Assembly (NCBI RefSeq): GCF_900108095.1
Contig: NZ_FNWL01000001.1
Span: 372,001 to 436,000, forward strand
Length of the DNA: 64,000 nucleotides
Source: Natronorubrum sediminis
GTDB lineage: Archaea > Halobacteriota > Halobacteria > Halobacteriales > Natrialbaceae
Direction of reading: 5' to 3'
Part shown: piece by piece, positions 2,825 through 39,893 of the stretch
Position numbering within the stretch: the stretch's first letter is position 1
How the letters are laid out: each line of letters begins with the position of its first letter
Translations under genes and position numbers: made by a program
Notes under the pieces: generated by a model
What the model saw: the letters and a program-made list of their open reading frames with translations, nothing else
Told to the model about the DNA's origin: nothing
Databases searched by the model: none

Positions 2825-3787
2825 TCACAGTCGCTGGAGACGGTCACCGAGCACCTCGTGGAAATGTTCGCCGTATTCCAGAAACCACTTGATATGCTCG
2901 TCCCACATTTCCCGGTCGTCCAGCGTACCGTCTGTGCGGAGTTGAATCGCACTCCGCATATTCCCGCTCCGTGTCTCTTCAGGTTCATCCCAATTGAGCG
3001 AGTGACCAAGCTCCTCTTCGATTTGCTCCTTGTCCTCGTGGAGTTGCCAGAACGCTTGCTCGTCGTCCTCGACGAAGAGGGTGATGCCACGTTCCTCCGC
3101 TTTCCGATCAAAGAGGAAAGAGATGTGAAACCCGGATTTACCAATTGGATTTGAATAGTAATGACGGGGGCCTGGCTTCCGTGCGCTGAGAGGTGTTTGT
3201 TCCTGCTCAATTCGATTACGGAACATTGTCCAGAACTCTTCACGGCGTTCCGCCTGTTCGGAGAGTTCGCCCTCTGAACGTCGTGCTTTGGCTTTCCACT
3301 CACTGGGTTGGTCAACCGGGTTAAGGCGGAACGCTGGCGCGGACTCACCGATTTTCCACACTTCAAGTCGGAGGGCGAAAAGGTCCACGCCTTCTCTGCT
3401 GTTGCTATTCAACCACTGGACGGCGTCTCGGTGTTCATCGTTGAATCGGGGGGCGATCCAGACGATGATGTCTGCGTCTATGCCTGCAGCATAGGCGATG
3501 GCTTTGCCGAGATGGTCGTGATCGGATTGCGTGAGCTGGTTCTCAATCACGACGTTGCGTCCGTCGGCTTCGACTCGCGCGAGGATATCAACGCTGTATT
3601 TCCCGACACTCTTCTCAATCTCGACCACGTCTAATTCTAGGCCGAGCATATCCTCTAGGTGCGATGTTTCGTCGGATCGGATCTCCTCAGCCAACCACGG
3701 CGTGAACTCTTGGGCTTCATGCTGCCAGTACTCTCGAACGTCTTGTTTCTCAAGATCGCGGAAATCGAGATCGTTAAAATTTCCCAT
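2825..3787 (-). CDS. DUF4268-type protein with N-terminal PD-(D/E)XK-like nuclease domain
   Basis: A 320-residue protein if started at ATG 3787 (MGNFNDLDF); an upstream ATG at 3814 adds nine residues. Near residues 65-105 the motif VDILARVEADGRNVVIENQ followed by SDHDHLGKAIAYAAG is a restriction-endonuclease-like core: an Asp, then E-x-Q in place of the usual E-x-K, then a helix. The C-terminal half (WTMFRNRIEQE to IKWFLEYGEHFHEVL) matches the DUF4268 layout. Such proteins occur singly in defence islands and are assumed to be nucleases acting on foreign DNA, but no activity can be shown here. The Gln variant is typical of this subfamily. Confidence 0.78.
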   Translation of the reverse strand: MGNFNDLDFRDLEKQDVREYWQHEAQEFTPWLAEEIRSDETSHLEDMLGLELDVVEIEKSVGKYSVDILARVEADGRNVVIENQLTQSDHDHLGKAIAYAAGIDADIIVWIAPRFNDEHRDAVQWLNSNSREGVDLFALRLEVWKIGESAPAFRLNPVDQPSEWKAKARRSEGELSEQAERREEFWTMFRNRIEQEQTPLSARKPGPRHYYSNPIGKSGFHISFLFDRKAEERGITLFVEDDEQAFWQLHEDKEQIEEELGHSLNWDEPEETRSGNMRSAIQLRTDGTLDDREMWDEHIKWFLEYGEHFHEVLGDRLQRL

Positions 3788-5372: not shown

Positions 5373-6473
5373 CTATTGAGGCGAAACGCCGAAGACCTCA
5401 TAGAGTCGGTCAAGTGTCTGCTGGTCTCGTAATTTTGTAACCGTATTCTGGTTTGCGTATAACCCCTTCTCCCAGAACGCGTCTTCTATGTCTCTCGTCT
5501 CTATCCAATCGACACCGATGAGATACTCCCGGAGGTCGGGGTCTTCGGAATCCTTGCTTAAGTCACCTTCAAGCGGTGCTTCGGTGATCGGAATTTCATC
5601 TTCCTCGCCTTCCACATCAACCATAAACTCTGGTGCCGGTGTCTTCTCTTGAGTTACTATACCAACACCGATGTATCCCTCTCCAGGATGATTGACAAAT
5701 ATGCGTTTTCCCTCTTTGGCTTTCCCCATCGTTCGGTGATACCACTCACCGTGACCACCAGTGATGAACCCGTACTTGCGACCATCTTCCCATCTGCGGT
5801 ACTCGTTCTGTCCGAAATTCGCGTAAAAGTCGAATCTGTTCCAAGGTTTCCGGGCGTCTTCTTCTTCCTCTTCTTCCGATTCATAGGGGTCTTTTAGCCA
5901 AGTACGGGCGATGTATTCGCGCCCATCTTCTTTGTAGTAATTGAATCGGATCGCATTTATTGGAACTTCGTATTCTTCGGAGAGATACTCAATAATACGT
6001 TCCGTTGAACTATCTAATTCCGAGGAAACTATCGTCAGCATGTGCTGGCTGTTCACATCTTCAGGTCCTGAGGGAGCATCATCTTGTGTAGGATAGAATG
6101 CAGAGTCGAATCCTACTTCGAACGTATTGTCGTGTTCGTCCGAGGCTTCGTATAGCTTCTTCACATCCTGATAGTCTAGGTGCCGAACCCAGGATGCATA
6201 GTCGATAACCTGCGCCGTGACGTCACGCGGTGATTGATCACGTTTCAATTCTACCACATGGAGGTCGCCTGCCTCGTCGATTGCCAAAATATCAAGACGG
6301 TTCCCGCTGGGGGTCGTTATTTGCCGGTCGATGACCAGAAGGGGTTGACCAAGCACGTTTGGGTCCTGGAGGAGGAATTCTTCAAGACGCTCTTCACTGT
6401 CTAACTTTGTGGATGAAACTCGCTTGAAGGAGTCGTCGTTCTCAACCCGCCAGAGTCCCAAATCAATCGGCAT
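5373..6473 (-). CDS. NucS/DUF91-like PD-(D/E)XK nuclease family protein
   Basis: A 366-residue protein starting MPIDLGLWRVENDD. Residues 25-100 carry the NucS-like core: LEEFLLQDPNVLG, then RLDILAIDEAGDLHVVELK with the D and E-x-K catalytic triad, and AQVIDYASWV with the usual glutamine helix. This N-terminal architecture is shared with archaeal NucS and DUF91 proteins. The rest is acidic, with an EEEEEED run near residue 200, and has no recognised domain. It lacks the canonical NucS C-terminal PCNA-binding tail. In this nuclease-rich neighbourhood it is more likely a defence or element-encoded nuclease than the housekeeping mismatch nuclease. Substrate unknown. Confidence 0.77.
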   Translation of the reverse strand: MPIDLGLWRVENDDSFKRVSSTKLDSEERLEEFLLQDPNVLGQPLLVIDRQITTPSGNRLDILAIDEAGDLHVVELKRDQSPRDVTAQVIDYASWVRHLDYQDVKKLYEASDEHDNTFEVGFDSAFYPTQDDAPSGPEDVNSQHMLTIVSSELDSSTERIIEYLSEEYEVPINAIRFNYYKEDGREYIARTWLKDPYESEEEEEEDARKPWNRFDFYANFGQNEYRRWEDGRKYGFITGGHGEWYHRTMGKAKEGKRIFVNHPGEGYIGVGIVTQEKTPAPEFMVDVEGEEDEIPITEAPLEGDLSKDSEDPDLREYLIGVDWIETRDIEDAFWEKGLYANQNTVTKLRDQQTLDRLYEVFGVSPQ

Positions 6474-8159: not shown

Positions 8160-8935
8160 CACAGTCGGTATACGAACAAAGCGAACTCTGTCCCGTTTGT
8201 GAATCAGATGATATCGACGATTCTGTAGAGGTGTGTGACGCGATCTGTGAATCCTGCGGGTTCGTCATTAGTGAGAACACGGATTCCACTTCATTAGAAT
8301 GGGATGTAGCTGAAGGATTCTTCTCATCCTCGGAGGATAAAGACTGGATGTCGGAATGTCGAATCAGAAACGCAACCGACCAACAACTTGCGGAGGCTTT
8401 TGAGACGCTGGAGGAGTTTGCTAACCAACTCGGGCTTTCAGACGATTTGCGGGGAAAGACAGCGGAGATCTACTGTGATGCATTTCGAGCCGAAATCACT
8501 GACGGAAGGGTAACCGCTTGTATTATTGCGGCGTGCCTTCGATTGGCATCCCGACGTGGAGACCTTCCGATCCCGATGAGCCGGCTTACTGAGTTTTCGA
8601 GTGTTGACGAAAAGAAATTCCATCGCAGCCACCTCGCCCTGTGTGACGAGTTGGATATAGAACCTCGTACGCCAGCACCATCGGAGTACGTATCGTTCCT
8701 TCAATTGGAACTAGGACTGACAGATGCCGATTATGAAGAAGTAGAACAGCTCGTGGACGAAGTTGAGAGAGAGCAGATGTTTGTGGGGAAGGATCCAGCT
8801 GGGATTGCAGCTGGAGGTGTCTACCTTCTACAAGAGGATTTTACGCAGTTGGATGTTGCCAAGGCAGTTGGGCTGTCAACTGAGACTGTACGACAGCGTG
8901 TCAAAGACCTCCAGAAGGTTTTCGACGATGTTTGA
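8156..8935 (+). CDS. Shortened TFIIB-family transcription initiation factor (TFB paralogue)
   Basis: A 259-residue protein, against about 310-330 for a standard TFB. Zinc-ribbon cysteines C12, C15, C31 and C34 are present, then EWDVAEGF in the B-reader position. The linker is abbreviated before cyclin repeat 1 (LAEAFETLEEFANQLGL to ACIIAACLRLASRRG) and cyclin repeat 2 (FLQLELGLT to DVAKAVGLSTETVRQRVKDL, with the BRE-reading HTH). TFB joins TBP at promoters and loads RNA polymerase. It overlaps the Cas4-like gene by 4 bases and the recombinase gene by 8, so it is made together with DNA-processing proteins. The shortened linker suggests altered start-site selection (inference). Confidence 0.9.
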   Translation: MTQSVYEQSELCPVCESDDIDDSVEVCDAICESCGFVISENTDSTSLEWDVAEGFFSSSEDKDWMSECRIRNATDQQLAEAFETLEEFANQLGLSDDLRGKTAEIYCDAFRAEITDGRVTACIIAACLRLASRRGDLPIPMSRLTEFSSVDEKKFHRSHLALCDELDIEPRTPAPSEYVSFLQLELGLTDADYEEVEQLVDEVEREQMFVGKDPAGIAAGGVYLLQEDFTQLDVAKAVGLSTETVRQRVKDLQKVFDDV

Positions 8936-9878
8936 TCAGGAATCTGTGCGTGAACGAGTTGCAGAAAACGGGGAGACTCAGCAACTCCGAGCATCAGTAT
9001 ACGCGAGAACGTCGTCTAAAAGTCAGGAGTATGGGTACTCATTAGACGCGCAAGTACGTCGGAGTATAGACCGATGTGAATCGCTCGGATGGAAGGTTTG
9101 GTTCGTTTTCCGTGACGAGGCTGAGAGTGGTAAGGACACGGATCGTCCGATGTTCCGGAAAATGCTGAGTGCCGCGGAGAAGCAGGTATTTGATGTGGTC
9201 GTGATCTGGAAGCTGGATCGATTTTCACGGAGTCTGATGCACGCAGTACAGCTGGAATCTGAACTGAGACAACACAACGTGAGTCTGTACAGCGTAACGG
9301 AACAGATCGATACGACGAGCGCGACGGGACGGTTCAACTTCAGGAATATTGCTAGTGCAGCTGAATTTGAACGGGACATGATAAAGCAACGGACCCAGAT
9401 GGGGCTCAACGAACTTGCGTCCGAACTGAAGTGGCCGAATAACTCGCCACCGTTAGGTTATGAGTTGGATTCTGAAAGAAAACTCATGCTCGTAGAGCAG
9501 GAGGCGGACATAGTTGCTGGGATATTCGAACGCTATATCGAGGAACGATCGATGCCGGAGGTTGCGAGGTGCTTGAACGAGCAGGATATCCAGACACGAG
9601 AAGGGGGAGAGTGGACACCACGGGCAGTGGGTGACATCTTACGGAACGAGATCTACGCAGGAGTCTACGAAGTCGCAGACATTTCTAAACATGTTCCTGA
9701 GTACCAAATAATTGATTCAGATACGTTTGAAGAGGTAAAATCGATTCGTCACCGATTCCAAGGAGGTGGTGCTTCGAAGTCATCAATGTCCAACCCACGG
9801 AAGGAGCGAGCGATCAACAGAATACGAGAAATGTATCAGGAGTACCGTTCGGCTAATTCCGTCGAGGATAGATTATGA
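8928..9878 (+). CDS. Large serine recombinase / resolvase-invertase family
   Basis: A 316-residue protein from ATG 8928, chosen because it overlaps the TFB stop by 8 bases and starts just before the domain. The resolvase catalytic domain shows SVYARTSSKSQEYGYSLDAQ (nucleophilic Ser near residue 29), WKLDRFSRS and RFNFRNIASAAEFERDMIKQR. A Recombinase DNA-binding domain follows (PPLGYELDSERKLMLVEQEA to AVGDILRNEIYAGVY). The C-terminus is short with no zinc beta-ribbon, so it is compact for a large serine integrase. Cotranscription with a Cas4-like nuclease and TFB is unusual. It probably moves or inverts an element segment. Confidence 0.92.
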   Translation: MFDQESVRERVAENGETQQLRASVYARTSSKSQEYGYSLDAQVRRSIDRCESLGWKVWFVFRDEAESGKDTDRPMFRKMLSAAEKQVFDVVVIWKLDRFSRSLMHAVQLESELRQHNVSLYSVTEQIDTTSATGRFNFRNIASAAEFERDMIKQRTQMGLNELASELKWPNNSPPLGYELDSERKLMLVEQEADIVAGIFERYIEERSMPEVARCLNEQDIQTREGGEWTPRAVGDILRNEIYAGVYEVADISKHVPEYQIIDSDTFEEVKSIRHRFQGGGASKSSMSNPRKERAINRIREMYQEYRSANSVEDRL

Positions 9879-14773: not shown

Positions 14774-17584
14774 ATGACCCTAGACCGCGGATCTAAGTGG
14801 CGGAAATGGGACTTGCACGTTCATACGCCAGAGTCATTTGAGGAACATTATGGGTTTGACGGCGAAGAAGAGGTGGAAAAATATGATGGAAACCACTGGA
14901 AGAAATATCTTGACGAATTGGAGTCGGTGACTGACGACATAGCAGCCCTTGGTATAACTGACTATATGTCGGTTGATGGGTATGAAAAAATTATAGAGGA
15001 ACGGGAAAACGGACGATTAGAACAAATTGACTTGGTTCTTCCTAATATCGAATTTCGGCTTGATGACCTCGTAGTCGAGAATAATAGTGGCGATACTACT
15101 CGCATAAACGCTCACGTTATATTCAGCGACAAGTTTTCGCCTGAGACTATCCGAGAGAGGTTCCTCCATCGGCTTGAATTTGAAAATCAAAACGGCGAGA
15201 GTCTCCCCCTGAGCAAAGGGAGCTTGAACACACTAGGGGGACAGCATATAGAGTCCAACCCGGAAGAAAATCACCTATCTCCGTATGTAGCCGGTTGCAA
15301 AATTGTCACAATCTCCTTTGATGATATTCTTGACAAACTTGACACCAAAAAATTTCGGAATGATCATATGGTCGTTTTGGCGACTGAAGGATGGGACGAT
15401 GTTAACTGGAATTCTCAGGGTCATTTGACCAAAGAGCGCCTATTTAGAGAGTCAGATGCCTTGTTCAGCAGTAATGAGGGTCGCAGGGAATGGGCTCTCG
15501 GAATCACGGATGGCGTAGAAGAGTTCGAGAGGTCCTTTGGCAAACCAACACCATGTTTGTGGGGTTCAGACGCACATTCATATGATCGGTTATGCGAACC
15601 TGATGAAGAAAGATACTGCTGGGTAAAAGCTGACCCAACCTTTGAGGGACTAAAACAGGTGATTCACGAACCCAAACGAAGAGTTCGTATTCAAAGTGAT
15701 TCTCCACGTGATTTCACCCCAATCCATACGCTTGATGAGCTTTCTATAGAAAACGGTATAGTTGATTCACAGTTGCGAATTGAAGAAGAGTCGATTCCAC
15801 TGAACCGTGACCTCTCGGCTGTAATCGGCGGCAAGGGTGCCGGAAAGACAGCTCTCCTTGACATGATTGCGACCAATTTCGAAGATAGATGGGATAGGGA
15901 CAAAGAGAAAGGGGAACCTCCATCTGACCGAAATTCATTTATACAGCGGATTCAGGACAAGGAACCAGACATAAAAACAAAGCTGAGCTTCGTTGGAGAG
16001 GATGTTGATGAGTTCTCTAAACAAGTGAGTGATGAAACTGTGTTTGAATCCGCAGATCTAGTTTATTTGCCGCAGGGGAAGATTGAGGAATATTGTAGGA
16101 ATGAAGATAGGCTACATAACCGCATTATTGCCTTGGTCGAAAGAGAAGTACAACGAACTGACCCTGAGATGGTTAATCGTTTGGATCAACTTCGCACAAC
16201 AACCGAAGAAATAGTTGAGAATTTCCGTACTATCACCTCAAATATTTATGACCTCAACCCTTCCAAGCTGAACAAAGAGAAGGAATCCCTACAAAGCAGA
16301 AAAAAGAGGCTCGGCGGTGACTTGCAATCCAAAAAGGCCGAGATATCCAACTTTGAGGAGAAACACGCTGATGTATTAGAAGACGATGAAGCGACTGACC
16401 TTCGGAACGAACTCGGAAAACTGCAAGAAGAGATCGAACAAATTGAGGATGCTGAAAAGATTACCGAATCCGTCCAAGAAAAGGTATCTAGGCTCTCAGA
16501 CATAAATACACAACTGAGAAAGCTCGAAGGCCTATTGGAGGAGATTGACGAAGGCGAAAACCTCCCTCGTATCTCTATTCAAAAGGTAAAGACGGAGATT
16601 GAGAAAAATCAGGAGAGACTCCAGACTCAGGTCAACCGTAAGCGGGCACGGCAAGATGAGATTGAGGAAGCTCTCGAAGAAATGAATGATATTCAACAAG
16701 AGTATTCAGACCTTCTGGTCGAGAAAACAACAATTGCAGACAAGATTAGTGATACTAAAAGAGAGTTAGATGAGATTGGGGCCAAATTAGAACAGATAGA
16801 GGACCTCAGGGAGGAACGAGAGTCCTTATTCGTCGAATATATACAGAAGTTTGACGAAGTTCGAAATCAATATCAAACGATTATCGATCAATTTGAATCA
16901 GACTCATCTGAGATTTTAAGCGATATCTCTTTTGAACCCGCAATTAAGGCGAGAGAAAATTTGGAGACCCGTCTTGAACGACATATCGATATGCGTCGAG
17001 TTGATGAAGACCGCCTGCCGAATGTCGTGAATAAACTCACAGACGCTATTGAGGCAGATACCCAAGCTCGCAGGAAGGAACTATCCAGAGAGTTCCTAAA
17101 CAAGACACAGAATCTCACCGAGAAGATGCTAAGCGGGACGAAGGAATTTGAGTACGAAACCACTGTGTTTGACGATCATCTGTCCCTGGTCGAGAAGATT
17201 TATTTCCGAGATTCACCTATGCCAAACCTGTCTCTCGGGCAGAAAGGGACTGTGTTGCTGAAGATACTATTGGCTGAGGAGGATACGCCACTTATTATCG
17301 ATCAACCTGAAGAGAACCTCGATAACGAATTTATTTATGAAACTCTAGTTGGCGCTTTCCGAGATGCCAAACTAACACGGCAGGTGATTATCGCTACTCA
17401 TAATGCCAATTTAGTCGTCAACACTGATGCTGAACAGGTTATTGTTGCAAACTATGACAATAATACTATCGGATTTGAGTCTGGCTCTCTTGAGAATCCC
17501 GACATTAGGGAGCGGGTTACGACCATCTTAGAAGGCGGGGAAGAAGCTTTCCGTAGACGAGAGGAGCGATACGAAATTGGCTAA
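14774..17584 (+). CDS. TrlF-family PHP domain / SMC-like ATPase
   Basis: A 936-residue protein. Residues 1-310 form a PHP-type phosphoesterase domain: KWDLHVHTPESF, ITDYMS, and WGSDAHSYDRL supply metal-binding His and Asp. The ATPase half has Walker A GGKGAGKTALLDM (about 352), a long coiled coil (about 480-720), signature LSLGQKGT (about 818), Walker B PLIIDQPEENLD (about 839) and switch ATHNANLVV. This matches TrlF-type ATPases, found with defence genes and thought to couple nucleotide-dependent sensing to nucleic-acid cleavage. It is a single gene behind the shared GTTCC motif. Family call firm; activity and target are inferred. Confidence 0.88.
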   Translation: MTLDRGSKWRKWDLHVHTPESFEEHYGFDGEEEVEKYDGNHWKKYLDELESVTDDIAALGITDYMSVDGYEKIIEERENGRLEQIDLVLPNIEFRLDDLVVENNSGDTTRINAHVIFSDKFSPETIRERFLHRLEFENQNGESLPLSKGSLNTLGGQHIESNPEENHLSPYVAGCKIVTISFDDILDKLDTKKFRNDHMVVLATEGWDDVNWNSQGHLTKERLFRESDALFSSNEGRREWALGITDGVEEFERSFGKPTPCLWGSDAHSYDRLCEPDEERYCWVKADPTFEGLKQVIHEPKRRVRIQSDSPRDFTPIHTLDELSIENGIVDSQLRIEEESIPLNRDLSAVIGGKGAGKTALLDMIATNFEDRWDRDKEKGEPPSDRNSFIQRIQDKEPDIKTKLSFVGEDVDEFSKQVSDETVFESADLVYLPQGKIEEYCRNEDRLHNRIIALVEREVQRTDPEMVNRLDQLRTTTEEIVENFRTITSNIYDLNPSKLNKEKESLQSRKKRLGGDLQSKKAEISNFEEKHADVLEDDEATDLRNELGKLQEEIEQIEDAEKITESVQEKVSRLSDINTQLRKLEGLLEEIDEGENLPRISIQKVKTEIEKNQERLQTQVNRKRARQDEIEEALEEMNDIQQEYSDLLVEKTTIADKISDTKRELDEIGAKLEQIEDLREERESLFVEYIQKFDEVRNQYQTIIDQFESDSSEILSDISFEPAIKARENLETRLERHIDMRRVDEDRLPNVVNKLTDAIEADTQARRKELSREFLNKTQNLTEKMLSGTKEFEYETTVFDDHLSLVEKIYFRDSPMPNLSLGQKGTVLLKILLAEEDTPLIIDQPEENLDNEFIYETLVGAFRDAKLTRQVIIATHNANLVVNTDAEQVIVANYDNNTIGFESGSLENPDIRERVTTILEGGEEAFRRREERYEIG

Positions 17585-18588: not shown

Positions 18589-20637
18589 CTATTCTCTCAC
18601 TTCGATATAGTCTACAACTGCGGACAAATCATACCTTTGCTTGAGTCTTTTTTGATCGGCAAGGTTCGAATCTGCCATCGCAACAATTATCTGACATTCA
18701 TCAAGAACCTCAGTCATCTCCAAAAGGAAATCCGTGATATCTGGAGCGTTCTCATCATCCTGACCGTTTCCATAAGGAGAATCAATCAACACCAACTTCA
18801 ACGGAAGCGTGCTACTTTCCTCCTGTAACTCTGCAAGCACAGCGACATGGAACAGAAGCATATGCAGAGTTAGTTCTGCGTTCGTCTCTTCAAGGAGCTC
18901 TGGCTTCGACTCCGTTTGACCAGTTGTATGGACTGTGTACTTGTAAGAGTCGTCTTCTCTGAATGTCACTCCGGTCGCTGTCTCAAATGTTCCACGGGTG
19001 AATACCTTCAACAGGGAATTCATTCTCTGCCTCAATCGATTCTGAACTCGTCTCCTAGCCTCTTTCTGCTCTCGTGTAATCAGATCTTGGAACGCTTCTA
19101 GGGCCTTCTGCCGCTGCTCTTTCTGAATCCTCCCCTTGTTTAATTGCTTCCACCGCCACACGTCACGGGCAACCTCATGAAGCTTTTCACGTCTCGCCTC
19201 AATACGGAGTTCAATCTTTCTACTCTGCTCTCTCAACTGAGTGATCTCGTTCTTCAAAGCTTCCTTCCGCCGTTTGTATTCGGAGAACTTCGACTCTTCT
19301 TCTATCTTTCCTAGTTCTTGGAGTCGCTGCTTCTTTTCTTCAATCTCATCGTTCAGGAACTCAATTTCACCTTTGACCTGTCGCTTTCTGCCCTCAAGCT
19401 CTTCCAATTCCTCATGACGTCTCTCCTTCTCATCGACTCCACCCTCTTCTTCCACCTCAGACACTGTATCGTAACGTTTTGGCGGGATATCTTCCCCGCA
19501 AAGCGGACAGTCGCCTTCTTCGTGGAACTGCTCGTGTTTGCTTGGACTAATCGAAGTTGTGCATATCGGGCAGTGATTCGGGACAGCAACAAGTTGCTTC
19601 ATTTCCTGAAGAGCTGGAGCAACTTCTTCCGTCACCGCCTCACTCTCAACCTTCGAGATTGCCTGCTTAATTGAGCCAAACTCTTCCTGCTTCTCATCGC
19701 GTCGCGTTTGAAGGTCAGAAATATCGTCTTTGATATCGATTTTCTCTGATAAAATTACACTAACCTCTCCCTTGTTTTCAATCAGGTGGGAGAGGTCTTC
19801 TCTCTCCTTCGTCTTCTCCGAAATCTCTTTTTCAGTCTCTTCCTGATCAACCTGAAGACTTTGTATCTCTTCGTGAAGTTTATATGCACGTTGCACTCGT
19901 TCCCGCAGTAATCCCTTCGCCTTCTTCTCTTCTTTGTCAAGTTTGCAGTCTTCGAGTTCTTCCTTGATTTTACGTACGACGTTCGTCACTGTGATCCCAA
20001 ACAGGACATCTATCAAATCGGTGGCGTCATCACAATTATAGAAGCTCCGCAACTCACCAGTGATGACACTGTGTAATGAGAAGACGTCGAACTCGTCAAA
20101 ACCACGTTCGTAAAGCGGAGTATACCCGATCAAGTTGTTCACATCACTCTGCGTCTGCCGTTGAGAGATGGGGACCTCGTTTTCGCTAGGGTTCTTAACA
20201 ATATTGGGTTCATGATGACCTTTGTACCCCCCGGTGTTTTCCATCTCTCGATGGATTTTATACTCAACATCCCCCTTTGACCAGTAGCTGTCTGTCTCTA
20301 ACTTACCGTAGTTTTCGTGAATCGGGTCCGTAACAAGCGGATTGTCGTCATCTCGACCGATTAGATTAAACCTGGTTGCCTCAATGAAACTACTCTTCCC
20401 TTTTGAATTCTTCCCATGAATGATCGTATTCTGGTTATTGATTGGGAGATCCAGATCCGTAATCGCTCTGAACGCTCGGATCTGCATGTGTTGCAGCAGA
20501 ACCGGAGACTCATCGAAATCGAGGTTAGTATACCGACTGTCCAAGACATCAATAAACTCGTCTTCATACTCTTCATCGATCTCGTCTTCTTCCCGAATCG
20601 ACTTACGAATCTCACTTTTTATGTTGTCTTCAGGCAT
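18589..20637 (-). CDS. SMC/Rad50-like ATPase with zinc-hook cysteines
   Basis: A 682-residue protein. Walker A is GKNSKGKSS (75-83) after MQIRAFRAITDLDLPI, the beginning of a RecF/SMC head. Two coiled coils flank CPICTTSISPSK and CPLCGEDIPPKR (about 356-385), a double-CxxC zinc hook. Walker B is LKLVLIDSPYGNG (about 612), followed by IIVAMADSNLADQKR in the switch position. A classic LSGG signature is not apparent. It is the last gene of a four-gene operon and overlaps the YwgA-like gene by 8 bases. Size and organisation resemble Lamassu LmuB or archaeal Rad50-like defence ATPases. I infer a DNA-sensing role in defence; family is firm, function is not. Confidence 0.85.
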   Translation of the reverse strand: MPEDNIKSEIRKSIREEDEIDEEYEDEFIDVLDSRYTNLDFDESPVLLQHMQIRAFRAITDLDLPINNQNTIIHGKNSKGKSSFIEATRFNLIGRDDDNPLVTDPIHENYGKLETDSYWSKGDVEYKIHREMENTGGYKGHHEPNIVKNPSENEVPISQRQTQSDVNNLIGYTPLYERGFDEFDVFSLHSVITGELRSFYNCDDATDLIDVLFGITVTNVVRKIKEELEDCKLDKEEKKAKGLLRERVQRAYKLHEEIQSLQVDQEETEKEISEKTKEREDLSHLIENKGEVSVILSEKIDIKDDISDLQTRRDEKQEEFGSIKQAISKVESEAVTEEVAPALQEMKQLVAVPNHCPICTTSISPSKHEQFHEEGDCPLCGEDIPPKRYDTVSEVEEEGGVDEKERRHEELEELEGRKRQVKGEIEFLNDEIEEKKQRLQELGKIEEESKFSEYKRRKEALKNEITQLREQSRKIELRIEARREKLHEVARDVWRWKQLNKGRIQKEQRQKALEAFQDLITREQKEARRRVQNRLRQRMNSLLKVFTRGTFETATGVTFREDDSYKYTVHTTGQTESKPELLEETNAELTLHMLLFHVAVLAELQEESSTLPLKLVLIDSPYGNGQDDENAPDITDFLLEMTEVLDECQIIVAMADSNLADQKRLKQRYDLSAVVDYIEVRE

Positions 20638-23543: not shown

Positions 23544-24554
23544 TCAGAGATCAGTCAGGTATTCCCGGCGCTGTTCCATTTTCACCTCTTCTGAGCGAGA
23601 ATCGTAGTGCATCGATAGCACCTTTTCCGAGACATTCGCACGGCCCTCAACCGCCTTCATCGGCCAATCTTCCGAGAGCGCGTGCGTGATTCCGCCACGT
23701 CGGAGAGCATGAGGGCTCACCGAAGACGGACACTCCGAAGCGCCGTCATAGCCCGCCGCTGAACACTCATCGACCTCGCGCCCGTGCGGGCACTCTCTTG
23801 TCGGGACACATGGGCGAGTGTACCGATAGCAGTCGCCGCGAAGGGTAGTCGTGTGGGCGCGCCCTTCCGGCGTTGTCACGAGGGGCTCTCGGCTGTGTTT
23901 GTCGGTAACTGCCGGTCGTTGGTGTTTGATCCAGTCGTCCAGCACCTCACAGACGTCTTCAGAGAGTGCGACGAACCGTTCTCCTGTCTCTCCATTCTTC
24001 AATGGCGTTCCAGTCTCTGGTCGGTGGATGACTTCGAGTGCTTGGTTCGATGGATCGTAGTCGACACAATCCAACGCGTGAATCGCACCGACTCGTAGCA
24101 TTGTGTGCCACATTAATTCCAACGCGACGTGGGGCCGAGACGCGTACTCGTATTTCCGCAAATATTCCAAGATCTGTTTGGCTCGCTCTGAGTCCAACAT
24201 TACGCTCCGGATGTTGTCGTTGCCAGTCAGCGTCGGGGACAGCACCTTTGCGTGCAAATCCTGTTCGACGCCATCGATCGATTCCAGCCACTTGATGAAC
24301 ACGCGCAATGTGTCCATCTGGGTTTTCTCGGTGGCTGGTGCAAGATCGCCTTCGACGCGTCGGCAAATGCGGAACTCGTGGAGCTGGCGGCCTGATAGCT
24401 CGTTCAGGTTTTTGATTTCTTTTTGGTTGCACCACCGGATGAAGTGGCCCAGTCGTGAACGATGTGAATAGATCGTTGCCTGGGTTACACTGTTTTCACG
24501 GTCGGCTAAATACAGTTCAAGTGCGTGTTCGGGGTCGATTGGTTCGAGACTCAT
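23544..24554 (-). CDS. Tyrosine recombinase / integrase
   Basis: A 336-residue protein. An N-terminal core-binding domain (ALELYLADRENSVTQATIYSHR) precedes a catalytic domain with HTMLRVGAIHAL (Arg), HALRRGG (H-x-x-R) and MHYDSRS (nucleophilic Tyr). The cysteine-rich loop CVPTRECPHGREVDEC matches that of the 12102 integrase, so both belong to the haloarchaeal SNJ/pHK-like integrase type. It would cut and rejoin an attachment site next to its own 5' end, where att-like cores lie (24658 onward). A truncated duplicate is at 17611. It marks the right end of the accessory region. Confidence 0.94.
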   Translation of the reverse strand: MSLEPIDPEHALELYLADRENSVTQATIYSHRSRLGHFIRWCNQKEIKNLNELSGRQLHEFRICRRVEGDLAPATEKTQMDTLRVFIKWLESIDGVEQDLHAKVLSPTLTGNDNIRSVMLDSERAKQILEYLRKYEYASRPHVALELMWHTMLRVGAIHALDCVDYDPSNQALEVIHRPETGTPLKNGETGERFVALSEDVCEVLDDWIKHQRPAVTDKHSREPLVTTPEGRAHTTTLRGDCYRYTRPCVPTRECPHGREVDECSAAGYDGASECPSSVSPHALRRGGITHALSEDWPMKAVEGRANVSEKVLSMHYDSRSEEVKMEQRREYLTDL

Positions 24555-34423: not shown

Positions 34424-36289
34424 ATGAATCGCACTACAACTGATCCGGTTGACGGCGTTGACCGCCGGTCAGTACTCGCTGCAGGTGCGGCCGGGCTCTC
34501 GCTCTCGTTGAGTGGCTGTATCGACAACGTCCGGAGCGTCGTTACCGGCACAACCGACGATCAGCTCTCGCTCTCCATCGCGACGGTCCCCCAGGACGAT
34601 AACAGGGAAATCATCCAGATCGCCCGCCACATCGAGTCGAATCTCCAAGCAGTCGGTATCGACGCAGATATTGAAATGCGATCGCGCACGGATTTCCTCG
34701 AGATGGTCCTCATCGAGCAAGATTACGATATGTACGTCGGCCTCCATCCTGCTGATTTCGACCCCGACTTTCTCTTCGAGGCGCTCCACTCGACGTACGC
34801 CGGTGAAGCCGGATGGCAGAACCCGTTTGGATACGCGACCGGCGAATACCTCTTCGACGATCTTCTGGAGGACCAGCGTCGGGCGGACGACGAACAAGAG
34901 CGACAAGAAATACTCACCGACCTGCTCGAGATGTTCGTCAGTGAAAAACCGTTCGAGCCGATCTGTCGGCCTCACGAGTTCCGGATTGGACGCGGCGACC
35001 GATTCGACGGGTGGCACGATGGCCACTTCGCCACCCAGCGTGGATATCTCGGTCTCGAGCCGACCGACAGTAACGACGACAACGAGTTAGCGGCGCTCAT
35101 AACGGACTCGCGACCGACGCAGAACATCAACCCGCTCATGGCAGAAAACCGTGAACGGGAGACGATTATCGATCTGGTGTACGACTCTCTCGGAACCGTG
35201 ATCGTCGAAGACGACGAAGACGGCGAGGACGGCGTCGACACCGACGACCACGTGGTCGAATATCGCGTCGAGCCGTGGCTCGCAGAGTGGGACTGGGAAA
35301 CCGTCGAAGATGGAACGAACATTGCGCACGTCACGCTTCGAGAAGACGTCACGTTCCACAACCTCGAGGAGGACGATACGGGTGAACCCCTTACCGCCGA
35401 GGACGTCGAATTCACCTACCAACTCCTCGAGAACACGACGCTCGGACAGGGCAACACGTCACCAGCACCCCGCTATCAAGGTCACGTGAGCGCGGTCGAC
35501 GTCGACGGTATCGAGATCGAAAACGAGTACGAACTTCGAATTCCCTTCCACACCAGTACGATGGTCGGCGAACGGGCGTTTACCGTCCCGATCTTACCGA
35601 AGCACATCTGGCTCGAGTACGAACTCGACGAGCGAATCGAATCGAGTGACGACTTCTCGGCACCGCAAGGTGAGTGGGGCCTCGTGACGAGCAGTGCGAT
35701 CGAACCGGTGGGGAGCGGCCCCTACCAGTTCGCCGATCAATCCGATCAGAGTACCCTCACGCTCGAGCGATTCGACGATCACTTCTCGATCGGGTCGGAC
35801 GAGGAAGACCTCCTCGAGCCGATCGTCGAAGAGATCACGTTCATGGCCGATACTGGCAGTGCGTCTTCGATCGATCGAATCGAAAGCGGTGGGGCCGACT
35901 TCACCGGGACGATGCTCGAGGCGTACGCGATCGACGACGTACCCGATGACGACAATATCGAGGCGATGCCGGCCTCCTCGTGGACGTTCTATCACCTCGG
36001 GTTCAATACGGGGCGCGCACCGTGTCACAACCCACAGTTCCGTCGAGCTGTTGCACAACTGATCGACAAGGCGTATCTCACCGAAGAAGTGTTCTACGAC
36101 TATGCGGATCCGATAGCCGTCCCGGTAACTGACGAATGGGTCCCCGAGGAGTACGAGTGGAACGGCGGGGATCCCGTTACACCGTTTGCTGGTACCGATG
36201 GCGAGGTGAACGTCGAAGGTGCGTTGTCTGCGTTTGAATCGATCGGCTATCGGTACGATGCAGAAGAGGAGATTCTGAGGCGAAATTAA
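34424..36289 (+). CDS. ABC-type peptide/solute-binding lipoprotein, family 5 (copy 1)
   Basis: A 621-residue protein. DRRSVLAAGAAGLSLSLSGC is a twin-arginine lipobox signal. The mature protein has two-lobe family-5 (DppA/OppA) features: DGTNIAHVTLREDVTFHN, AEDVEFTYQLLE, VPILPKHIWLEYE, EPVGSGPYQF and FYHLGFNTGRAPCHNP. It binds a peptide or similar ligand outside the membrane. No permease or ATPase genes adjoin it. The TAATG overlap (36287-36291) couples it to a PAP2-family gene, and the same pair repeats at 37219. A tatatatcaac stretch upstream could hold the TATA box. Confidence 0.9.
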   Translation: MNRTTTDPVDGVDRRSVLAAGAAGLSLSLSGCIDNVRSVVTGTTDDQLSLSIATVPQDDNREIIQIARHIESNLQAVGIDADIEMRSRTDFLEMVLIEQDYDMYVGLHPADFDPDFLFEALHSTYAGEAGWQNPFGYATGEYLFDDLLEDQRRADDEQERQEILTDLLEMFVSEKPFEPICRPHEFRIGRGDRFDGWHDGHFATQRGYLGLEPTDSNDDNELAALITDSRPTQNINPLMAENRERETIIDLVYDSLGTVIVEDDEDGEDGVDTDDHVVEYRVEPWLAEWDWETVEDGTNIAHVTLREDVTFHNLEEDDTGEPLTAEDVEFTYQLLENTTLGQGNTSPAPRYQGHVSAVDVDGIEIENEYELRIPFHTSTMVGERAFTVPILPKHIWLEYELDERIESSDDFSAPQGEWGLVTSSAIEPVGSGPYQFADQSDQSTLTLERFDDHFSIGSDEEDLLEPIVEEITFMADTGSASSIDRIESGGADFTGTMLEAYAIDDVPDDDNIEAMPASSWTFYHLGFNTGRAPCHNPQFRRAVAQLIDKAYLTEEVFYDYADPIAVPVTDEWVPEEYEWNGGDPVTPFAGTDGEVNVEGALSAFESIGYRYDAEEEILRRN

Positions 36290-37110
36290 TGCTCACAGAG
36301 GTCTTAGTGGGAATGGTACAGATCGTCGGCATCATGCTGGCGATTTCGATTGCGCTCTTTATCAGCCGCGAAGCACTCACAACGACGCTCGCACAGTTGC
36401 GGTCCCGGTTACAGATTACTGGGCCGGTCCTCGTCGTCTTGGGCATCGCGTTATTGATAAATCGAATGATGCGTCAAAGCGAGGAAGACGGCATCTTCCG
36501 AATGACGACAGCGATTCGGAATCTCGAGGGTGAGTTCATCCTCATCTTTCAGGATTTCGAGACGACGAGGCTGACGGCGTACTTCTCGTTCGTTTACGTC
36601 TACGGCTACGCCTACATGCTCATCTTCCCTGCTGTCGCGTACTTCGTCCTCTCGAATACGCGGATGTTCCGTCGGCTCCTGACAGCCTACACGCTCAATT
36701 ACCTCATTGGACTCTCAGTGTACCTCCTCATCGCCGCCTACGGGCCGCGGCAGTTCTTCGGTGACGAAATGAACACGGTGCTCTACGATTTCGGTCCCGA
36801 GTACCAACACGTCACACAGGAGGTAAATCGGAACACGAACGTGTTCCCGTCGCTGCACACGTCTCTCGCCGCAACGGTCGGTATATTCGCGTTCTACACG
36901 CGCTCTGAGTACCCCTACTGGTTCGTCGTCGCGCTCATCCTCTCGATCAGTGTTATCATCTCGACGATGTACCTCGGCATTCACTGGGCAATTGACGTCG
37001 TTGCCGGCCTCGCACTCGCCGCGTTCTGTGTCTGGGTGTCGGATCAGGTCGTCGGACGGTGGACGCTCTCGGATATTGTCGATCGCACTCGAGAGACGCT
37101 CGACCGGTAG
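36289..37110 (+). CDS. PAP2-superfamily (AUR1-like) membrane phosphatase/transferase (copy 1)
   Basis: A 273-residue protein with six hydrophobic segments. Family motifs are FPSLHTSLAATV (phosphatase C2 with catalytic His) and TMYLGIHWAIDVVAGL (C3 with His and Asp); LTAYFSFVYVYGYAYM is conserved with the paralogue. AUR1-like relatives transfer phospho-headgroups between lipids, while others remove phosphate. It is read through from a coupled solute-binding lipoprotein gene, so the two probably act at the outer membrane surface together (inference). Substrate unknown. Confidence 0.87.
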   Translation: MLTEVLVGMVQIVGIMLAISIALFISREALTTTLAQLRSRLQITGPVLVVLGIALLINRMMRQSEEDGIFRMTTAIRNLEGEFILIFQDFETTRLTAYFSFVYVYGYAYMLIFPAVAYFVLSNTRMFRRLLTAYTLNYLIGLSVYLLIAAYGPRQFFGDEMNTVLYDFGPEYQHVTQEVNRNTNVFPSLHTSLAATVGIFAFYTRSEYPYWFVVALILSISVIISTMYLGIHWAIDVVAGLALAAFCVWVSDQVVGRWTLSDIVDRTRETLDR

Positions 37111-37218
37111 TCTCGCCCATTCTCGCTGGTACGGTGTTGGCTTCTGTTCGCTGACAAGGCATCGGGCCCAACGCAATACTGTTATACCACGGCCAGCCAA
37201 CTGTCGTAAACGAACCGA

Positions 37219-39036
37219 ATGAGCAACCACGGAGGCACACCGGTCGACGACGAAGCGAACGACGATATCGCCGGTGGGCCCTCCACCGGTGGGCTGAGCC
37301 GTCGGGCCGCACTTGTGGGTGTAACAGGCCTCACGGTGGCGACGAGTGGCTGTTTGAGTCAGTTCCGGAGTATCGTCAATCGCGACGACATCGATCCGCT
37401 TTCCGTGACGATTACGACGCTCCCCGCAGACGGCGACCGGGAGACGATCCGGCTCGCTCGAGAAGTGGCAAACGCGCTCGAGGCGGCCGGAATCGAGTCG
37501 TCAATCGAGATGCGCTCGAGCGAGGAGTTTTTGCGAGCCGTTTTGATTAACCACGATTTCGACATCTACGTCGGTGAACATCCGGGTGGCACCGATCCGG
37601 ACTTTCTCTACGAAGCGCTCCACTCACAGTATGCCGACGAATCCGGCTGGCAGAACCCATTCGGCGTGACGAACCTGTTACTCGACGAGTTACTCGAGGA
37701 ACAACGTGAGGCCGACGAGGACGAGCGCGAAGAGGCGGTCGAATCGATGCTCGAGGGGTTCGTGGCCGAGCAGCCGTTCGTCCCGATCTGTACGCCGACG
37801 GAACACCGCCTGGCCAGAGCAGATCGATACGACGGCTGGACGGACGGTCATCTCGCGACGCGAAGTGGCTATCTCGGACTCGATCCACTCGCTGACGAGC
37901 ACAGCGAACACCTCCGAACCGTTCACACGGACGCGCGTCCGTCACAGAACCTCAACCCGTTGACGGTCGAGTACCGCTACCGTGACACCACAATGGACCT
38001 CGTCTACGACTCCCTCGCGATCGACGCCGTCTCCGGTGACGGCGAACAGACGTTCACGCCGTGGCTCGCCGAGGAGTGGGAGTGGGAAAACGAATCGACG
38101 CTCGTCGTGTCGCTTCACACCGACTGTACGTTCCACGACGGCGAATCACTCACCGCCGAGGACGTCGAGTTCACGTACGAGTTCCTCTCAGATACTGCAA
38201 ATGGGGACGGGTCTGCACCTGCACCTTCCCCACGGTATCGCGGGGTGGTCAGTGCGATCGACGACGTCGAGGCGAGTGACGAACACACCCTCGAGTTCAC
38301 GACCGAGTCGAACCAGACGGTCGGCGAACGCGCGCTCACGGTTCCGATCCTTCCCGAGCACATCTGGACGGACCGCGCTGAGCACGCATCTGTCCGCGGT
38401 GTCCGCGTCGCACAGGGGACGACCGATGCGGTCGTCTCGAACAACATTCCGCCGGTCGGTTCCGGGCCGTTTCAGTACGCAGATCACACCGACAGAGAAC
38501 ACGTGACGTTCGATCGATTTGACGACCACTTCACGCTGCGTGAGGATGTCGACCTCCCCGAACCGACCGTCGACGAACTCCGCGTGCAGATCGACCCGCG
38601 AAGCACCTCTGCGATCCAATTGATCGAAGATGGCGACGCCGACGTCACGAGTTCCGCACTCGAGACCTACGTGGTCGACGATATCGAGGAGACGGACGAT
38701 GTTCAGTTACTCGAGTCGCCGTCGTGGTCGTTCTATCACCTCGGCTTCAACACCAGAAATGCACCGTTTAGCAACCCACGGTTCAGACAGTCCGTCGCGC
38801 AGTTGCTCGATAAGGCGTGGCTGACCGAGGAGGTGTTCGACGGCTACGCCGAACCGATCGCGACGCCGCTCACCGACGAGGAGTGGTTGCCCGAGGATTT
38901 CGAGTGGGACGGCGAGGATCCGGCCATGCCGTTTCTCGGAACGGACGGCGACGTCGACGTCGATGCAGCACAGGCCGCGTTCGAAGACGCCGGCTTCCGA
39001 TACGGTGAGGATGGATCCCTTCGGGTGAGACACTGA
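37219..39036 (+). CDS. ABC-type peptide/solute-binding lipoprotein, family 5 (copy 2)
   Basis: A 605-residue protein closely similar to the 34424 product: same motif set (LHTDCTFHDGESLTAEDVEF, VPILPEHIWTD, PVGSGPFQYADH, FYHLGFNTRNAPFSNP) and same ending pattern. The twin-arginine lipobox is LSRRAALVGVTGLTVATSGC. The first lobe and loops differ, suggesting distinct ligands after duplication. It overlaps its PAP2 partner by one base at 39036. No transporter genes are nearby. The 108 bases upstream hold nothing clear. Confidence 0.9.
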   Translation: MSNHGGTPVDDEANDDIAGGPSTGGLSRRAALVGVTGLTVATSGCLSQFRSIVNRDDIDPLSVTITTLPADGDRETIRLAREVANALEAAGIESSIEMRSSEEFLRAVLINHDFDIYVGEHPGGTDPDFLYEALHSQYADESGWQNPFGVTNLLLDELLEEQREADEDEREEAVESMLEGFVAEQPFVPICTPTEHRLARADRYDGWTDGHLATRSGYLGLDPLADEHSEHLRTVHTDARPSQNLNPLTVEYRYRDTTMDLVYDSLAIDAVSGDGEQTFTPWLAEEWEWENESTLVVSLHTDCTFHDGESLTAEDVEFTYEFLSDTANGDGSAPAPSPRYRGVVSAIDDVEASDEHTLEFTTESNQTVGERALTVPILPEHIWTDRAEHASVRGVRVAQGTTDAVVSNNIPPVGSGPFQYADHTDREHVTFDRFDDHFTLREDVDLPEPTVDELRVQIDPRSTSAIQLIEDGDADVTSSALETYVVDDIEETDDVQLLESPSWSFYHLGFNTRNAPFSNPRFRQSVAQLLDKAWLTEEVFDGYAEPIATPLTDEEWLPEDFEWDGEDPAMPFLGTDGDVDVDAAQAAFEDAGFRYGEDGSLRVRH

Positions 39037-39893
39037 TGCTTGCGAACGTCCTGATTCAGTTGGCGCTGGTCGTCACGTTCATGACGCTCGTCTCGATCGC
39101 GCTCTTCGTGGGTCGATACCGACTTCGCGATACGAAAGTCGAGTGGCGAGACCGCCTCCGGGCGGCCGCCCCGGCGACCGTCCTCCTCGGTGCCGTCCTC
39201 TCGCTCAACGGACTCTCGAGGCAGTTCGTCCCCGAAATTTCGTGGCTGATCGACTGGAACCTGACGTGGGCGATCTACGACATCGAAGGCCAGTTCATCG
39301 TCTGGCTGCAGTCGCTCGAAACGCCAGCGGTGACGGCGTACTTCTCGTTCATCTACATCTACGGCTACGTTTTCTTGCTCGTGTTTCCGGTTATCGCGTA
39401 CTTCGCGCTCTCGAATACGCGGCCGCTCCGAGAACTCCTGACGGCGTACACGCTGAACTACGTTCTCGGGACGGTGCTCTACATCCTCATCATCGCCTAC
39501 GGGCCACGAAACATGATGCCGGAACTCGTCGACGCGTTGCTCTATGACACGTATCCGCAGTACCAACACCTCACGCGCCAGGTTAACCGAAATACGAACG
39601 TCTTCCCGTCCTTGCATACCTCCCTCGCAGCGACCGTCTCGATTCTCGCGTTCCACACGCGGTCGGTCTATCCGAAGTGGGCCGTCGTCGCCTCGATTCT
39701 GGGCCTCTCTGTCGTCATCTCGACGATGTACCTCGGCATTCACTGGGCGATCGACGTCGTCGCGGGAGTCGTCCTCGCGTACGTCTGCGTCGAACTCTCC
39801 CGCCTGCTCGTCGGCCGCTGGTCGGTTTACGAGTGGGCCGACGGTCGACTCCCATCGCTCTCGAGTATTCGCAATCGCGACTCCGACTCGTAG
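39036..39893 (+). CDS. PAP2-superfamily (AUR1-like) membrane phosphatase/transferase (copy 2)
   Basis: A 285-residue protein with the same motifs as the 36289 product: FPSLHTSLAATVSIL, TMYLGIHWAIDVVAGV and VTAYFSFIYIYGYVFL. Its ATG overlaps the last base of the solute-binding gene (TGATG). Paralogy plus identical gene order show a tandem duplication of the whole unit. It is predicted to work on a lipid-linked phosphate at the membrane; precise reaction unknown. Confidence 0.87.
   Translation: MLANVLIQLALVVTFMTLVSIALFVGRYRLRDTKVEWRDRLRAAAPATVLLGAVLSLNGLSRQFVPEISWLIDWNLTWAIYDIEGQFIVWLQSLETPAVTAYFSFIYIYGYVFLLVFPVIAYFALSNTRPLRELLTAYTLNYVLGTVLYILIIAYGPRNMMPELVDALLYDTYPQYQHLTRQVNRNTNVFPSLHTSLAATVSILAFHTRSVYPKWAVVASILGLSVVISTMYLGIHWAIDVVAGVVLAYVCVELSRLLVGRWSVYEWADGRLPSLSSIRNRDSDS

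Follow-up and report, generated by a model that had tools for sequence, protein, structure and literature searches.

The 64,000-nucleotide stretch of Natronorubrum sediminis DNA analyzed here (the window) carries two solute-binding protein (SBP)–PAP2 gene pairs in tandem at 34424-39893, with all four open reading frames (ORFs) on the + strand:

34424..36289, + strand: SBP1, family-5 solute-binding lipoprotein, circularly permuted, 621 aa
36289..37110, + strand: PAP2-1, PAP2_3-type membrane lipid phosphatase/phosphotransferase, 273 aa; PF14378, E 9e-20
37219..39036, + strand: SBP2, family-5 solute-binding lipoprotein, circularly permuted, 605 aa
39036..39893, + strand: PAP2-2, PAP2_3-type membrane lipid phosphatase/phosphotransferase, 285 aa; PF14378, E 7e-17

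Within each pair the genes overlap by exactly one base, in TAATG at 36289 for SBP1/PAP2-1 and in TGATG at 39036 for SBP2/PAP2-2. SBP1 and SBP2 are 47% identical across 604 aligned positions, and PAP2-1 and PAP2-2 are 54% identical across 269. The ORFs, junctions, and identities confirm the initial annotation, which had described one gene pair present twice with one-base overlaps. It had also reported that no ABC permease or ATPase gene accompanies the pairs, and indeed none adjoins them in the window gene map; permease and ATPase genes adjoin all five other family-5 SBP genes of the same genome. Gene maps were prepared with a home-made, composition-based gene caller, with which gene starts and small genes are uncertain. 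A third SBP–PAP2 pair is present elsewhere in the N. sediminis genome. A frame or annotation artifact was ruled out by the four clean ORFs and by recurrence of the arrangement in many genomes.

A search across haloarchaea, as had been suggested for this pair, showed that it is widely conserved. Among 65 genomes from 10 families, hand-picked from 391 to span families and take in genomes without a match, both SBP and PAP2 occur in 50, neither in 15, and one alone in none (Fisher p 4.5e-8; the counts and the p value ignore relatedness). A PAP2 gene lies directly downstream of 55 of the 61 SBP genes in these genomes, with a median hit-to-hit gap of 18 bp. In 75 named loci (the best 80 of 302 pattern matches, mostly from the window's own family), an SBP gene precedes 96 of 99 PAP2 genes, and 55 of these show the exact one-base overlap. 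This recurrence of gene order argues that the pairing is not due to chance. The partnership is nevertheless not absolute, as 6/61 SBP genes lack a PAP2 immediately downstream and 17/72 PAP2 genes lack an SBP upstream in the 65 genomes. When 24 tandem loci were analyzed together with the window, the copy 1 and copy 2 sequences fell into two clean groups in the SBP tree and again in the PAP2 tree; both trees show one change each, and thus the pair was duplicated once, as a unit.

Circular permutation of the binding proteins

Both SBPs exceed the curated cut-off of PF00496 (32.4 bits), with scores of 135.7 bits for SBP1 and 175.8 bits for SBP2, and their N termini carry a twin-arginine motif and a lipobox (RR...LSGC in SBP1, RR...TSGC in SBP2). 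A lipobox after a hydrophobic stretch was found in 106 of 110 SBPs, and 105 of those have RR ahead of it. The canonical family-5 chain order, in which the N-terminal part comes first, is not followed: SBP1 and SBP2 are circularly permuted. In SBP1, PF00496 profile positions 2-279 match residues 282-610, while positions 288-361 match upstream, at C1:406568-406789, or about residues 49-122. In SBP2, profile positions 2-285 match residues 279-600, and the two portions of the chain are assigned as follows:

37402..37878, + strand: SBP2 segment, approximately residues 62-220, equivalent to the C-terminal portion in ordinary family-5 SBPs
37891..39033, + strand: SBP2 segment, approximately residues 225-605, equivalent to the N-terminal portion in ordinary family-5 SBPs

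Profiles of aligned SBPs agree with this assignment. Positions 20-180 of alignment A4, from which 8 of the 67 kept SBPs were left out, match residues 338-495 of AppA (1xoc; i-E 6.4e-07), and positions 57-181 of alignment A2 match 5u4o 365-489 (i-E 1.6e-4). In an AF2 model of SBP2 (pLDDT 89.5), residues 225-605 superpose on 1xoc 17-357 with a Z of 22.5 and residues 228-605 on 4oet 3-328 with a Z of 23.3 (both VIA). In-order alignment of the model to ordinary SBP chains covers residues 222-605 only; because structural aligners keep chain order, the equivalence of the N-terminal part of SBP2 to the ordinary C-terminal part rests on the sequence profiles. In a rotation test, the local score rose in 16/16 comparisons with ordinary SBPs, with gains of 3 to 91; gains in the controls were at most 8 in six ordinary pairs, and there were none in four permuted pairs. 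The initial annotation had not remarked on the permutation.

Related permuted SBPs occur in normal Dpp/Opp operons without PAP2. In an SBP tree sampled from every third of the 67 kept SBPs plus the window proteins and chosen others, the PAP2-linked SBPs group together in a single clade (37 rows, 100/100). Its sister group consists of permuted SBPs from Dpp-type operons, and a long stem (0.99) sets the clade apart from these Dpp-operon SBPs. The cut point of the permutation differs by subfamily (profile ~286 vs ~273), and the rotated ordinary outgroup is not confined to a single side of any branch (70/73, with long branches); the permutation may have had one or two origins. Dpp/Opp permease neighbors in place of the PAP2 gene had been named as the finding that would speak against the initial reading. 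Such neighbors were seen only in distant permuted SBP clades, and no SBP of the PAP2-linked clade was found next to Dpp/Opp permease genes in the gene maps of relatives.

The PAP2 enzyme and its genomic neighbors

PAP2-1 and PAP2-2 both exceed the cut-offs of PF14378 and PF01569. Residues R158, S192, H194, H236, and D240, which we take to be the catalytic residues of the three PAP2 motifs, are invariant in 40/40 PAP2s (2 of the 40 kept PAP2s were left out of alignment A5). The initial description of the enzyme as PAP2/AUR1-like is in line with a fold comparison of an AF2 model of PAP2-2 (pLDDT 91.0), the nearest structures being IPC synthase (9vj4, Z 18.0 over 214 residues) and Aur1 (9ivc, Z 16.7 over 218 residues) (VIA). 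LpxE scored close to Aur1 (Z 16.1), followed by SMSr (8ijq, Z 14.5) and PgpB, a C55-PP phosphatase (8bm3, Z 12.7). By sequence, the match to Aur1/IPC synthase is weak (E 0.003-0.004), and NCBIfam matches, undecaprenyl-diphosphate phosphatases among them, all lie far below cut-off. Two Haloarcula plasmid records label the relative "inositol phosphorylceramide synthase." The active site probably faces outward, an orientation with which the loop charge pattern fits.

Outside the window's own family, the pair is often flanked by a GT39-like glycosyltransferase gene (PMT_2-like, E 3e-5), an arylsulfotransferase-like gene, and a gene for a new membrane protein, c2. One or more of these lie near the pair in 16/41 diverse loci versus 0/13 control loci, and the full cluster is found on plasmid pHGLR2 of Haloferax gibbonsii strain LR2-5. 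Across genomes, c2 is present in 45 of the 50 with the pair versus 2 of the 15 without it. In N. sediminis itself, c2 is unlinked to the pair, and queries of the genome with the GT39-like and arylsulfotransferase-like proteins, in searches run without a positive control, gave no match; the link to glycoconjugates therefore rests on other haloarchaea. These neighbors, too, had escaped the initial annotation.

Around c2 genes mostly unlinked to the pair, no common pathway neighbor was seen in 20 loci. At one of these, L219, c2 adjoins a PAP2 gene without an SBP, and at locus L217 the gene caller overlooked a c2 gene. A resemblance of c2 to LssY_C proteins was unsupported, as there was no Pfam match at E 0.1. 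PF14067 gave four sub-threshold matches in six genomes and none over cut-off; one of the four lies inside the N. sediminis c2 (E 0.077).

Proposed function and alternatives

The initial annotation had suggested a putative surface ligand whose recognition feeds a lipid-phosphate reaction; of its interpretation, the pairing, its duplication and conservation, the lack of adjoining importer genes, and the Aur1-like nearest fold were supported. On balance, we lean toward a reading in which an SBP once used for transport became dedicated to an extracytoplasmic lipid-phosphate enzyme that takes part in assembling surface glycoconjugates. Each pair would form a dedicated two-protein module on the outside of the cell membrane. 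The SBP, predicted to be Tat-exported and lipid-anchored, would descend from a circularly permuted SBP of haloarchaeal peptide import and would have left its ABC importer to partner an integral membrane enzyme that is PAP2_3/Aur1-like and has probably outward-facing catalytic residues. The most likely reaction of that enzyme would be removal or transfer of a phosphate or phospho-headgroup, with an isoprenoid-phosphate or an archaeal phospholipid as substrate, while glycolipids or glycans of the cell surface are assembled or decorated. Its SBP-like partner may bind or present a substrate, or gate the enzyme, much as mycobacterial LpqW steers membrane glycosyltransferases, and c2 probably takes part in the same process. 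We put forward more tentatively a haloarchaea-wide, extracytoplasmic module for lipid modification. In it, an Aur1-like PAP2 phosphotransferase would have the permuted, transporter-free SBP as an obligate subunit that presents substrate or gates by ligand, and would build a surface glycolipid together with c2 and, in certain lineages, a GT39 glycosyltransferase and a sulfotransferase; such an enzyme would be an SBP-dependent PAP2.

An ordinary Dpp/Opp receptor, the default assignment, was rejected on two grounds: the pair has no adjoining permease or ATPase gene, and the SBP co-occurs with PAP2. An SBP with no permease gene next to it can still work with an importer encoded far away, however, and bacteria are known to have orphan SBPs that share a permease. 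The SBP might belong to a scavenging route in which an outward PAP2 dephosphorylates an external phosphorylated compound and the SBP passes the product to a Dpp/Opp permease that is encoded at another site and shared with other SBPs. Its fold is that of importer receptors, and the five other family-5 SBP genes with adjoining permease and ATPase genes would agree with such sharing. We nonetheless consider scavenging unlikely, since the PAP2-linked clade is far removed from Dpp-operon SBPs in the tree, co-occurs with PAP2 across the 65 genomes with no exception, and is never beside a permease in the relatives' maps, while the Aur1-like architecture favors lipid substrates.

PAP2 could instead be the haloarchaeal dolichyl-(pyro)phosphate phosphatase that recycles polyprenyl phosphate after extracellular glycan transfer, with the SBP helping to present the carrier. 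The GT39-like neighbors, the undecaprenyl-diphosphate phosphatases among the weak NCBIfam matches, and the similarity to PgpB point in this direction; the NCBIfam scores far below cut-off and the 15 of 65 sampled haloarchaea without the module, in a group where dolichol-based glycosylation is general, make recycling improbable in our view. Family-5 SBPs bind small ligands in the cleft between their lobes, which would suit a true sensor of the environment that detects a peptide, sugar, or metal and turns PAP2 on or off, acting as a receptor and not as a substrate carrier. Passages of PMC4990184 likewise describe a permuted SBP, Tp0684, in which glucose binding and the accompanying conformational change are retained. 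A ligand-gated enzyme nevertheless seems quite improbable, as the c2, GT39-like, and sulfotransferase-like neighbors suggest biosynthesis over sensing.

If the favored dedicated-partner reading is true, a lipid-phosphate enzyme joins the short list of non-transport roles for ABC binding proteins. The presence of the pair in many haloarchaea points to an uncharacterized step of cell-surface building. The module occurs in H. gibbonsii LR2-5, and genetic tools exist for the genus Haloferax. For haloarchaeal polar lipids, the assignment of genes to headgroup steps is incomplete (PMC8305020, section 3.7), and a conserved, probably outward-facing PAP2 with a dedicated partner is a concrete candidate for them. 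In the open-licence literature, we found no paper on a haloarchaeal PAP2 phosphatase; passages of PMC5898192 and PMC9385802 do not treat this SBP–PAP2 pair, and the term "PAP2" is absent from the latter.

Comparison with known systems

The same literature yielded one report of a natural circularly permuted ABC-type binding protein, on lipid-anchored Tp0684/TpMglB-2 of Treponema pallidum, in passages proposing the label Type Ic/Cluster Bc (PMC4990184). Tp0684 is a Type I sugar-binding protein, whereas the haloarchaeal SBPs are of family 5, the OppA/DppA class, and do not have the Type I (MglB-like) fold; in the same passages, Tp0684 is studied as a likely chemoreceptor rather than as an enzyme partner. 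Natural circular permutation is shown here in the family-5 class. The nearest relatives of the PAP2-linked clade are permuted family-5 SBPs of haloarchaeal Dpp/Opp importers (L016, L194-L200), which adjoin DppB/C/D/F-type genes and no PAP2; in one importer subfamily (L016, L199) the chain is cut roughly one helix earlier. Since permuted members also remain in importer operons, the effect of permutation is open to study in both settings.

Aur1/IPC synthase (9vj4, 9ivc) and SMSr (8ijq) appear to share extra N-terminal helices with the PAP2 model, and the Pfam family is PAP2_3; identity is 10-15%. We know of no ceramide or PI, their substrates, in haloarchaea.

Mycobacterial LpqW keeps the ordinary domain order, and we know of no transporter for it. 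The haloarchaeal SBP has an SBP fold (in the model) and no transporter gene nearby, and would resemble LpqW if it also acted on a membrane lipid enzyme. In the passages that describe it, LpqW (PDB 2GRV) is a lipoprotein with an SBP fold whose action is on glycolipid synthesis at the membrane. It is described as channeling PIM4 toward lipomannan, with MptB activity falling in its absence (passages of PMC3229680 and PMC7261415), and as the closest PDB homologue of the SBP EppA by PSI-BLAST (a passage of PMC7312458); passages of PMC12041525, PMC12421883, and PMC12802301 also treat it. The partners of LpqW are GT-C mannosyltransferases, whereas the partner of the haloarchaeal SBP would be a PAP2 enzyme.

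Tandem SBP-PAP2 pairs and their conservation

Reading of the sequence confirmed the initial annotation of a tandem duplication in the window: four open reading frames (ORFs) form two neighboring pairs, in each of which a family-5 (PF00496) solute-binding lipoprotein (SBP) and a predicted membrane lipid phosphatase/phosphotransferase (PAP2) share a one-base stop/start overlap. SBP1 and SBP2 are 47% identical, and PAP2-1 and PAP2-2 are 54% identical. Profile searches of the contigs of the host genome (3.78 Mb, six contigs; the window is C1:372001–436000) located a third pair, in which 254 bases separate the SBP and PAP2 ORFs.

Gene pairs in the N. sediminis genome
34424–36289, + strand: SBP1, first gene of tandem pair 1
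36289–37110, + strand: PAP2-1, second gene of tandem pair 1
37219–39036, + strand: SBP2, first gene of tandem pair 2
39036–39893, + strand: PAP2-2, second gene of tandem pair 2
C1:22762–25646, minus strand: third SBP-PAP2 pair

The SBP of the third pair ends (L015:6840-6960) in an imperfect short direct repeat containing two stop codons, and the long gap before PAP2 comes next. The closest named relatives of the window in both SBP and PAP2 trees were Natrialbaceae.

A search across haloarchaea, which the initial annotation had proposed, found the pair to be conserved. Among 65 genomes hand-picked from ten families (PAP2 at E ≤ 1e-50, SBP at E ≤ 1e-80), 50 carried both genes, none carried only one, and 15 carried neither. 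PAP2 lay immediately downstream on the same strand for 55 of the 61 SBP genes in this sample and was absent there for 6; an SBP lay upstream of 55 of the 72 PAP2 genes, the 17 without one including genes in genomes G033, G179, and G136. When 391 genomes were sampled from the class, the PAP2 profile matched 287 of them at E ≤ 1e-10, some only through weak matches to other PAP2s. In 75 named-genome loci, drawn from the best 80 of 302 pattern matches and mostly of the window's own family, 96 of 99 PAP2 genes were preceded by an SBP (exceptions in L163, L169, and L180), 55 of the 96 with the exact one-base overlap, and the order SBP–PAP2–SBP was frequent in Natrinema loci. PAP2 matches with an internal stop codon (G054:C12:180522-181373, G142:C2:399815-400612, and G318:C2:111724-112506) and a Salinigranum rubrum SBP annotated as two pieces (L203) hint that some copies are decaying.

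The SBP-PAP2 pair evolves as one unit. In trees of SBP and of PAP2 from 24 tandem loci and the window, one change was enough to part every copy-1 gene from every copy-2 gene (SH-aLRT 95 for SBP and 97 for PAP2), versus a mean near 17 changes after shuffling. The clean split in both trees implies one duplication of the whole pair, early among the sampled genera, after which the partners stayed together.

Separately, positions 1-24000 of the window are mostly 45-52% GC (one 2-kb bin, 55.6%) versus ~58-64% elsewhere in the window, carry two recombinase genes (one of the serine type at 8928-9878, one tyrosine recombinase-like at 23544-24554), and look like an integrated island. Strong matches there to the PADLOC candidate defense family PDC-S11 (2825-3787, E 1e-105; 5373-6473, E 3e-132) and large ATPases with weaker Ppl- and LmuB-like matches (14774-17584 and 18589-20637) may mark a defense island.

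Circular permutation of the SBPs

The window SBPs are circularly permuted, as seen in Pfam order, structure-profile matches, a rotation scan, and an AlphaFold2 model. In the genome profile search, PF00496 profile positions 2–285 fell in the C-terminal part of SBP1, with positions 288–361 upstream thereof. A profile of the three own-genome SBPs matched 5u4o through three segments whose order is permuted (profile 252–353 and 402–543 to chain 70–327; profile 57–181 to chain 365–489), and a 61-member family profile matched AppA (1xoc) at chain 44–311 (profile 233–527, i-E 2e-25) and 338–495 (profile 20–180, i-E 6e-7). For the rotation scan, four permuted SBPs were each cut, rejoined, and locally aligned with four ordinary, unpermuted family-5 SBPs of the same genome. 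Scores rose in 16/16 comparisons, by 3 to 91 raw units, and the best cuts lay around residues 200 to 281. As controls, six ordinary pairs gained no more than 8, and four permuted pairs gained nothing. When the SBP2 model (mean pLDDT 89.5, pTM 0.86) was subjected to order-keeping structural alignment, only the part from residues ~203–231 to the C terminus aligned, and its counterpart in family-5 chains was an N-terminal stretch of ~330–400 residues (4oet 3–328, Z 23.3; 1xoc 17–357, Z 22.5).

Permuted family-5 SBPs were also found beside ordinary permease and ATPase genes in haloarchaea. One from this genome (L016:6630-8294 = C1:814629-816293) heads a normal permease/ATPase operon and is cut about one helix earlier than the PAP2-linked clade; seven others accompany permease/ATPase genes (L194–L200), and one has genes of the Dpp peptide importer type nearby (L193). 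In a maximum-likelihood tree, 37 PAP2-linked SBPs formed one side of a branch (100/100), with six permuted SBPs of Dpp context as their sister group (joined 100/99), and another permuted Dpp subfamily branched apart. The rotated ordinary outgroup was weakly placed on long branches, and the tree therefore does not decide between one and two origins of the permutation.

PAP2 and neighboring genes

Residues R158, S192, H194, T230, H236, and D240 were identical in 40/40 PAP2 relatives. K+R counts were 5.8 for the TM1-TM2 loop, 2.2 for TM5-TM6, and none for TM6-TM7; by the positive-inside rule, these charges place the catalytic loops probably on the outer face. The PAP2 model (pLDDT 91.0) was nearest in fold to IPC synthase (9vj4, Z 18.0), followed by Aur1 (9ivc, Z 16.7), LpxE (6ebu, Z 16.1), and SMSr (8ijq, Z 14.5), and the top match by sequence was PgpB (E 2e-6). 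Either phosphatase or headgroup transferase activity is possible.

Genes around the pair were clustered over 42 stretches, comprising 41 diverse loci and the window. The only widely shared genes were SBP (cluster in 41 loci) and PAP2 (38). At least one of three further clusters lay within the fetched stretch at 16/41 loci: c2, a membrane protein that matched neither Pfam nor NCBIfam families (12/41); c3, PMT_2-like at E 3e-5, below the cutoff (10/41); and c7, over the cutoff for Arylsulfotran_2 (5/41). All three were absent from 13/13 control loci around importer SBPs. Plasmid pHGLR2 of Haloferax gibbonsii LR2-5 holds SBP, PAP2, c2, c3, and c7 together, under record names that include aryl-sulfate sulfotransferase, ABC transporter substrate-binding protein, and phosphatase PAP2 family protein; in S. 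rubrum, a sulfotransferase gene adjoins the pair with the two-piece SBP, as does a gene annotated "glycosyltransferase family 39 protein." Genome-wide, c2 occurred in 45/50 genomes with the pair versus 2/15 without (Fisher p 4.5e-8, which ignores kinship), and 17 of 51 c2 matches lay ≤10 kb from SBP or PAP2. The sole c2 copy in the window's genome (C3:227571–228929; L204:6569-7933) is not linked to the pair, and query searches of that genome did not detect c3 or c7. In G033, a PAP2 gene lacking an upstream SBP lies ~1 kb from a c2 gene.

Proposed function and precedents

With a lipobox in 106/110 sequences, the SBP would be exported by Tat and then lipid anchored, beside a predicted membrane-embedded PAP2 with its active site probably outside. 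In the simplest reading, the SBP would bind a lipid-linked or soluble ligand and either present it to PAP2 or gate the enzyme, which may remove or transfer a phosphate group during surface glycoconjugate assembly. The idea in the initial annotation that a binding protein serves an enzyme acting on lipid phosphates is plausible, and conservation, co-duplication, and genomic context now back it. The literature searched yielded no description of an SBP partner of a PAP2-class enzyme. Structurally, the closest precedent for an SBP in permuted form is Tp0684, which is of a different SBP type from the PAP2-linked proteins (PMC4990184). The nearest functional precedent is LpqW (PMC3229680, PMC7261415, PMC7312458). 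On this reading, the pair would join a repurposed SBP, in permuted form, to the PAP2 enzyme class.
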